DNA from: Alphaproteobacteria bacterium
Lineage (GTDB): Bacteria; Pseudomonadota; Alphaproteobacteria; Micavibrionales; Micavibrionaceae
DNA length: 64,000 nucleotides
Direction: 5' to 3'
Assembly: GCA_021776025.1 (NCBI GenBank)
Contig: JAJFGR010000007.1
Coordinates: 496,001 to 560,000, forward strand
This document shows, one piece after another, positions 13,644 to 15,510 of this stretch. The translations under genes were made by a program, and so were the position numbers. Numbering within the stretch: position 1 is the first letter of the stretch; the number at the start of each line of letters is the position of its first letter. Below the pieces are notes generated by a model that was given only the letters and a program-made list of their open reading frames with translations, searched no databases and was not told the DNA's origin.

Positions 13644-14274
13644 CTTAGAGCTTGAACAATCGATTGATGGTCCAGTTTGCGGGCTTGATGAGGTTGGGCG
13701 CGGGCCTTTGGCCGGGCCGGTCGTGGCGGCTTGCGTTTACATTCCTGAAGAGACGTACGCCCTGCCCTTTATTCCTGATATTCGTGACAGTAAGAAACTT
13801 TCGCATAAGAAACTGGAAGAGCTTTACACCCTAATAACCGAGCATTTTGATTGGGCCGTAGCAGAAAAGTCACCGCAAGAGATTGATGATATCAATATTC
13901 TGCAAGCTTCACTCGCGGCCATGGCAGTATCGCTTGGGCAAATTGATATTGAATTTAGCCATGCGCTGGTGGATGGGAATAAGCTGCCGCAACTGCCCTG
14001 TCCGGCAACCGCTGTGGTGAAGGGTGACAGTAAATCTATTTCGATTGCGGCTGCTTCGATTGTGGCCAAAGTCACCCGCGACCGAATGATGAAACAGCTG
14101 CATGAGGAGCACCCGCATTATGGCTGGAACACCAATGTTGGCTACCCTTCGAAAGCGCATCTTGAGGGAATTGATGCACACGGCATTACAAAACATCATC
14201 GAAAATCCTTTGCGCCCGTAAGAAATTTTATCGAGCATGGATCGACTCGAAACCCCTTACACAGCGCGGCATAG
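13606..14274 (+). CDS. rnhB: Ribonuclease HII
   Basis: 222 residues from ATG 13606. CGLDEVGRGPLAGPVV carries the metal-binding Asp28-Glu29 pair, DSKKLSHKK follows, and ASIVAKVTRDR is the conserved C-terminal block. RNase HII cleaves single ribonucleotides and RNA-DNA hybrids. The start overlaps the pepN 3' end; an in-frame ATG at 13585 would add seven residues, and neither has a clear ribosome binding site. Its stop (TAG 14272-14274) lies at the edge of the GANTC cluster in front of ccrM; rnhB beside ccrM is a recurrent alphaproteobacterial neighbourhood. Confidence 0.93.
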   Translation: MSSKSPVKALKPSLELEQSIDGPVCGLDEVGRGPLAGPVVAACVYIPEETYALPFIPDIRDSKKLSHKKLEELYTLITEHFDWAVAEKSPQEIDDINILQASLAAMAVSLGQIDIEFSHALVDGNKLPQLPCPATAVVKGDSKSISIAAASIVAKVTRDRMMKQLHEEHPHYGWNTNVGYPSKAHLEGIDAHGITKHHRKSFAPVRNFIEHGSTRNPLHSAA

Positions 14275-14356
14275 AGTCGCTTAAGAGTCTATGGTAGAGT
14301 CCTGATTCCATTACTTGAATCCATTTTTATGCTTGACGGCGAATCCCTTTTGACTC
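14244..14356. promoter_or_regulatory. GANTC site cluster upstream of ccrM
   Basis: Eight GANTC sites occur in 113 bases: 14244, 14274, 14285, 14297, 14304, 14317, 14341 and 14352 (first base of each), and a ninth lies inside ccrM at 14425. GANTC is the recognition sequence of CcrM itself. Methylation-state control of ccrM transcription is established in Caulobacter, so this is probably the control region. I do not see an unambiguous -35/-10 pair or CtrA box. Confidence 0.75.
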
Positions 14357-14394
14357 ATGGTGCCTTCTCACTCTTATCCACAAGAAGGATCACC

Positions 14395-15510
14395 ATGCCC
14401 GCTCAAAAATGCGCGTCAAAAATAGATTCATATCTCAACAAAATTCATGTGGGGGATTGCGTCGAAAACATGCGCGCCATGCCCAAAGAAAGCCTAGATT
14501 GTATCTTTGCTGATCCGCCTTACAATCTTCAGCTTGGTGGTGACCTGCACCGCCCCAATAACTCCAAAGTAGACGCAGTTGATAATGATTGGGATCAATA
14601 TGAATCCCTGCAACATTACGACGAATTTACCCGTGAATGGCTTGGCGCAGCCCGTGAACTTCTCAAACCCGATGGATCCATCTGGGTGATCGGCAGCTAT
14701 CACAATATCTTCCGCTTGGGCTATATTCTGCAAGATATGGGGTTTTGGATCCTCAATGATGTGATCTGGCGTAAATCAAACCCTATGCCTAATTTCCGCG
14801 GCCGCCGCTTTACCAATGCGCATGAAACGATGATCTGGGCTGGAAAATCGAAAACTTCCAAATACACCTTCAACTACGAAACCATGAAAAATTTCAACGA
14901 AGATTTACAAATGCGCAGTGACTGGTATCTGCCACTCTGCACGGGTGGAGAACGACTAAAAGACGATGAGGGCAAGAAGGCTCACCCCACTCAAAAGCCG
15001 GAAAGTCTTCTTTACCGCGTTCTTCTATCATCAACGCGCAAAGGCGATACTGTGCTTGATCCGTTCTTTGGCACAGGAACAACCGGCGCTGTAGCAAAAG
15101 CCTTGGGCCGTAATTTCATCGGGCTTGAACGCGAACAAGAATACGCAAACCATGCGCAAAAGCGCATTGATGGTATAGAAGAGATGGAAGAAAACGTCCT
15201 TAACATTCAAACCAAACGCGAAAAGCCGCGCATTCCATTTGGAACGCTGATAGAGCGCGGTTTGCTTAAGCCTGGAGCTATTTTGACTGACTCTAAAAAA
15301 CGCCACAGTGCCAAAATCCACGCTGACGGCAACATCATAACCATGAACCGCATTGAAAGCATGAAAGGCTCCATTCACAAAGTCGGCGCTGCTGTACAGG
15401 ATGCGCCTTCATGTAATGGCTGGACATTTTGGCATTATCAGGATGGAAAAACGGCTAAACCGATCGACGTTCTACGAGAACAAGTAAGAGCGAATGACTT
15501 AAAAGCCTAA
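14395..15510 (+). CDS. ccrM: Cell-cycle DNA methyltransferase CcrM (GANTC adenine-N6)
   Basis: 371 residues from ATG 14395, chosen because AGAAGGA lies eight bases upstream and the protein then begins like other CcrMs. The catalytic motif DPPY is at residues 40-43 and the SAM motif [10 protein letters not shown] at 222-231, the order of beta-class methylases. The last ~85 residues (from about 285, [10 protein letters not shown]...) form the CcrM-specific C-terminal domain needed for DNA binding. CcrM remethylates GANTC at the end of replication in alphaproteobacteria. The stop overlaps the converging hypothetical gene by four bases. Confidence 0.95.

Follow-up and report, generated by a model that had tools for sequence, protein, structure and literature searches.

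A cluster of GANTC sites at the putative ccrM promoter of a Micavibrio-like alphaproteobacterium includes a spacer element conserved across the class

Most of what is established about CcrM control comes from bacteria in which CtrA drives ccrM, and the ccrM promoter of C. crescentus carries a couple of GANTC sites. Methylation-sensitive control of ccrM is already known: the C. crescentus gene is described as being transcribed only from the hemimethylated chromosome (PMC2217572) and as being activated by CtrA (PMC2877005). The locus reported here resembles that system in the gene concerned and in having GANTC in the promoter, but it differs in carrying seven sites, in and around the spacer of a putative sigma70-type promoter, and in that element-bearing loci of the class sample have no excess of CtrA-like boxes over shuffles. 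A density of sites like the one here is described for the gcrA promoter of A. tumefaciens, with 6 GANTC in 250 bp and repression by CcrM that is detectable in E. coli (PMC11514494), but that promoter controls gcrA, not ccrM. The ftsZ gene of C. crescentus shares the position of the site, with a conserved GANTC between -35 and -10, but there methylation activates (PMC3708114), and the gene is not that of the methyltransferase itself. The C. crescentus mipZ promoter is likewise CcrM-dependent and activated by methylation, with the motif close to its start site, and it too belongs to another gene than that of the methyltransferase. In the restriction-modification systems CfrBI and LlaDII, expression is governed by the system's own methyltransferase or by its target site, much as we propose here; unlike these, CcrM is an orphan cell-cycle enzyme that methylates adenine in GANTC, and its sites here are many. 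As far as the accessible text of the literature we searched goes, we found no prior report of a class-wide ccrM spacer element, of its retention without gcrA, or of its expansion in the Micavibrio-like order.

The window, by which we mean the whole 64,000-nucleotide stretch of DNA that was analysed, contains ccrM directly downstream of rnhB, and the interval between the two genes is laid out as follows.

13585-14274, plus strand: rnhB (ribonuclease HII), the upstream gene (Pfam RNase_HII, E 1.6e-40)
14244-14248, no strand: GANTC within rnhB, outside the conserved promoter core (sequence)
14274-14301, no strand: upstream GANTC sites 14274, 14285 and 14297, spacings 11 and 12 (sequence; comparison with relatives)
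14304-14308, no strand: GANTC site E, 13 bases 5´ of site A (13-base step seen in many family loci)
14317-14321, no strand: GANTC site A, 24 bases 5´ of site B (sequence; comparison with order and class loci)
14333-14338, plus strand: putative -35 hexamer TTGACG of ccrM (sequence; conservation in the order)
14341-14345, no strand: GANTC site B (GAATC), in the putative promoter spacer (conserved in the order)
14352-14356, no strand: GANTC site C (GACTC), touching the first base of the putative -10 hexamer (conserved in the order)
14356-14361, plus strand: putative -10 hexamer CATGGT, 17-base spacing, weak consensus, 3/6 (sequence; conservation in the order)
14374-14382, plus strand: perfect DnaA box TTATCCACA, between the putative promoter and the start codon (motif scan)
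14383-14389, plus strand: AGAAGGA, ribosome-binding-like (sequence)
14395-15510, plus strand: ccrM, 371 aa, GANTC adenine methyltransferase (Pfam N6_N4_Mtase, E 3.2e-65, and RAMA)
14425-14429, no strand: GANTC within ccrM, codons 11-12 (sequence)

The original prediction, made from the letters of the window, was that nine GANTC sites within 186 bases, seven of them within 83, precede the gene for the enzyme that methylates GANTC. Every site is found at its claimed coordinate (14244, 14274, 14285, 14297, 14304, 14317, 14341, 14352 and 14425, all within 14244-14429), and the two Pfam domains support the identity of the gene, which is the single ccrM match in its genome. Its longest open reading frame begins at 14329, but 14395 is the likely start because of the AGAAGGA just upstream. 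The description of all nine sites as lying in front of ccrM is right for seven. Since 14244 lies in rnhB, 14425 lies in ccrM, and 14274 overlaps the rnhB stop codon, to which it contributes its first base, we take the cluster proper to be the seven sites in the 83 bases from 14274 to 14356.

These seven sites lie on or 5´ of a putative sigma70-type promoter of ccrM (TTGACG, a 17-base spacer and CATGGT). A consensus promoter scan of the ccrM upstream stretch reported no promoter, as the -10 hexamer matches the consensus in only three of six letters; the case for this promoter is made by its conservation, described below. A simple terminator scan found no terminator at the locus, and Rfam at its gathering threshold returned no family for the ccrM upstream stretch. 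Elsewhere in the window, Rfam matched a 6S RNA gene (44054-44231, minus strand).

The density of sites is exceptional for this DNA. GANTC is rare in the 64-kb window, with 118 occurrences where dinucleotide shuffles average 228, and when the 186-base stretch itself was shuffled in the same way (n=5000) the mean was 1.15 sites and the maximum 6, with nine in 0/5000 rounds. For a wider comparison we scanned contig G000:C21, which holds the window and amounts to ~34% of the genome (794,635 bases, 1306 GANTC). Its background is 0.42 sites per 256 bases (by a rough ORF mask, 0.62 intergenic and 0.40 coding), or ~0.14 per 83 bases, so that the chance expectation of 0.3 first given for the 83 bases was too high. 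The ccrM cluster ranks first in the contig at window sizes of 83, 120 and 186 bases (7, 8 and 9 sites); the runners-up at 83 bases have 5 sites, at 787637 and 632077, followed by windows with 3. At 300 bases it is tied with a place starting from 631909 (nine sites). By the same rough mask, 224/312 intergenic stretches of at least 50 bases in the contig contain no GANTC and 63/312 contain one. We can thus reject the idea that the cluster reflects ordinary intergenic density.

The scan also brought up other GANTC groups in this contig. At 787617-787721 and 784392 (L158), dense sites with the repeated unit GAGTC..GACTC..GAGTC flank a helicase gene on both sides and adjoin a type I restriction (HsdR-like) gene; this is perhaps the boundary of a mobile island. 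Five GANTC in ~110 bases (451861-451967, L144) lie directly 5´ of a DivIC-family septum gene and form a candidate for another methylation-controlled promoter. A further six in 120 bases (632054-632173, L150) are within a prmC-like methyltransferase gene.

The core of the arrangement is conserved within the order. We matched ccrM in 36/37 genomes of the relatives set, our own included; leaving out fragment matches in G013 and G028 and a second, weaker match in G019, and dropping L006 and L010, which had too little upstream sequence, we used 32 loci. TTGAC followed by a spacer GANTC at position B was present in 31/32 and GANTC at position C in 26/32, and the cluster is thus kept upstream of ccrM in related genomes. 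A column table was made from 23 loci picked for exact spacing of B and C, whose B and C letters are conserved by that selection; three letters that played no role in this choice are invariant in all 23, namely the T preceding C and, within the -10, the A at position 2 and the T at position 6. The middle bases in the order were A19 C4 T3 G4 at B and C11 A7 T9 at C. Additional sites accompany the core: 15/31 element-bearing order loci and 32/50 from the class sample described below have a GANTC 12-20 bases 5´ of TTGAC, and 18/31 order loci, but not our own genome, have one overlapping the -10. The full series of upstream steps (24, 13, 7, 12 and 11) recurs in L002 and L003 of the same genus and nearly so in L005, with partial matches in L009 and L012. 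The ccrM upstream stretch is identical in the Micavibrio record L048 and the same-family genome L015, one of the grounds on which we infer the order to be Micavibrio-like. We also observed that GANTC often lies over ccrM codons 2-4 (ATGTCGAGTCA) in order loci, for example L004, L007 and L011.

TTGAC with a spacer GANTC before ccrM is a conserved element beyond the order as well. The class sample comprised 114 genomes, each class genome listed with its own family code, and ccrM was matched in 85 of them. We left out our own genome, second matches in four genomes, and G045, G130 and G147, whose matches (E 1e-51 to 1e-65) are probably not orthologues. This gave 81 loci, of which 77 were readable, L189, L193, L234 and L238 having no anchor motif. 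TTGAC is accompanied by a GANTC at either B or C in 50/77 and at both in 29/77, whereas over 200 rounds of dinucleotide shuffling the corresponding numbers of loci averaged 0.8 (never above 4) and 0.015 (never above 2); 27/77 loci were without the element. A narrower first scan of the class had found it in 44/74. Among 750 ORF upstream regions of our own contig, the element occurs in 5, and B and C occur together only at ccrM. A set of named loci (L053-L120, 67 usable, with L053-L055 of uncertain order) contains the TTGAC-GANTC-N6-GANTC core in Rhodobacterales, Azospirillum and others. On a quick, unrooted CcrM tree of 124 rows, 108 have the element and at least 12 changes are needed; two Loktanella rows inside Rhodobacterales do not have it, nor do the five rows with Hyphomicrobiales names, Reyranella aside, while unnamed rows in that part of the tree do. 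In Rhodobacterales loci, for example L056-L068, a recurrent palindrome-like ACAATATCTTGT lies ~50 bases 5´ of the ccrM TTGAC and may resemble an NrdR box.

The suggestion that this lineage uses a larger switch than Caulobacter holds in part, as regards the number of sites. The order averages 5.8 GANTC per 200 bases upstream of ccrM, more than either the class sample (2.7) or the named loci (2.8), but the core itself is class-wide. As TTGAC followed by a spacer GANTC occurs in many families of the class, we reject the view that the arrangement is a novelty of this lineage only.

PMC2877005 describes CtrA sites that often precede ccrM in Rhizobia, as do DnaA motifs, chiefly where no CtrA site is present. 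Two successive passages of that source disagree, one placing ccrM under CtrA in most cluster B members and the next separating the regulon there from CcrM. The same source cautions that GANTC counts alone are no proof of methylation control. For Rhodobacterales, methylation changes are described as perhaps mattering little for expression, judged from the ctrA promoter (PMC8116508). We counted CtrA-like boxes (TTAA-N6/7-TTAA, up to 1 mismatch) and compared them with shuffles. Loci with the element had 0.20 boxes versus 0.22 shuffled in the class and 0.12 versus 0.16 among the named loci, whereas loci without it had 1.07 versus 0.56 (12/27 loci) and 1.78 versus 0.40 (5/9), respectively; the order was at 0.71 versus 0.52, with a box in 13/31 loci, and leans clearly to neither side. 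The broad OmpR-type family, in which ctrA itself is not singled out, was matched in 6/6 genomes searched. CtrA-like boxes are clearly above shuffles only where the element is missing, a hint that ccrM may be driven in either of two ways.

DnaA boxes 3´ of the -10 exceed expectation, being present in 10/31 order loci (0.85 expected), 11/58 named loci (0.5) and 3/50 class loci (0.45). Those in the order are mostly 55-58 bases past the -10, unlike the box at 14374-14382; no DnaA box was found at that place in the other same-genus loci, and the whole contig has 13 perfect boxes. The box at our locus might play some part in ccrM control.

How could such a promoter work? We consider it reasonably probable that the cluster is the ccrM promoter and confers negative feedback, coupled to replication, by methylation. 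In this model, ccrM would be driven by a weak sigma70-type promoter with CcrM sites B and C in the spacer and A just 5´ of the -35, followed in the Micavibrio-like lineage by further sites 5´ of A at steps of 11-13 bases. With target sites of CcrM built into the ccrM promoter, CcrM would write on its own promoter. RNA polymerase would most likely make little use of the fully methylated promoter; once the fork had passed, the sites would be hemimethylated and ccrM could be transcribed, and fresh CcrM would then remethylate the sites and close the promoter. Full methylation would thus probably silence the promoter and hemimethylation open it. The A. tumefaciens gcrA and C. crescentus ccrM promoters offer precedents, but since methylation of the ftsZ spacer GANTC activates that gene, the sign at ccrM could be opposite. 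With many sites, full methylation of the promoter would depend steeply on overall methylation, and the extra sites could thus delay or sharpen the shut-off.

The opposite sign is at the heart of a competing explanation that we regard as rather doubtful, namely positive feedback in which the methylated spacer GANTC recruits GcrA and sigma70 and ccrM is switched on. GcrA was also one of two possible readers named by the original prediction, the other being SeqA-like; SeqA is gammaproteobacterial and GATC-specific. A gcrA gene is present in the genome (G000:C10:19464-19871, E 1.5e-41) and was matched in 35 of the 37 relatives-set genomes, and the weak -10 might depend on a helper. In C. crescentus, promoters that carry a GANTC in the -35 to -10 interval are described as activated at 40-60 min (PMC4287350). 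Against this, retention of the element does not follow gcrA. Across the class, gcrA was matched in 76/114 genomes, 74 over the cut-off, and the element is kept in 13/15 readable loci from genomes without clear gcrA versus 37/62 with it (Fisher p 0.07), a difference in the direction opposite to the one expected. Six of the 15 are among 18 genomes without a listed match in the first gcrA search. A second gcrA profile run over all 15 gave nothing convincing, the best being E 9.5e-4 in G037, which has a sub-cut-off gcrA match; with this genome left out the element is kept in 12/14. GcrA is thus not needed to retain the element, and we reject it as a necessary reader. The sites themselves point both ways. 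By the C. crescentus consensus YGAKTCK (PMC7987155), which comes from another order, 0/7 sites of the cluster proper fit and 1/9 overall (14244, in rnhB). Fits at B are more frequent (15/33 gcrA-bearing class loci, 15/30 order loci and 29/48 named loci, L056-L114) than among contig sites (243/1306) and number 3/11 in gcrA-less genomes, but C sites seldom fit (7/24, 1/27 and 4/46, respectively, and 3/11 without gcrA). What remains of the suggested reading is that GcrA may contribute at the ccrM promoter. The gcrA promoters themselves were rejected as similar clusters: the stretch before our own gcrA shows one GANTC, and ten other gcrA loci, in which several start codons are insecure, have 0 to 6 and none has a ccrM-type core.

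Two further explanations dispense with reading of the mark. There is a slim chance that CcrM protein represses by sitting on the clustered sites and blocking RNA polymerase. The sites do overlap the putative promoter core, and some restriction-modification methyltransferases, LlaDII and CfrBI among them, affect their own gene or system, to go by titles cited in PMC3874152, but a catalytic enzyme would seem a poor stable blocker. The other explanation, which we consider very improbable, is that an unrelated regulator recognises the conserved letters and that GANTC occurs among them incidentally. This would fit position C, where the flanks are conserved (TGANTCA) and the middle base is skewed (C24 A7 T4 G0 in the class, C41 A12 in the named loci); the restricted middle base and the conserved T before C indicate a constraint on C beyond what methylation demands. 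However, the middle base of B in the class is near even (C11 T13 G14 A6), so that what is kept there is the palindrome and not one pentamer, several spacings occur, and the A following C coincides with the -10 A that never varies in the exactly spaced loci.

Returning to negative feedback by methylation, a broader version of it may be offered tentatively, as a possibility that we would not yet favour. The spacer element could be an ancient, GcrA-independent homeostat of the class, with RNA polymerase reading the methylation of the spacer. CtrA control in Hyphomicrobiales and others would then have replaced it later, and in the Micavibrio-like order the sites would have grown in number to form a counter, shutting only when nearly all of them are remethylated. 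If much of the class uses a promoter with CcrM sites in it in place of CtrA control, the timing of adenine methylation would commonly rest on feedback by the mark. The Micavibrio-like order, whose members are predators, would then provide a natural many-site version in which to test threshold reading of DNA methylation.
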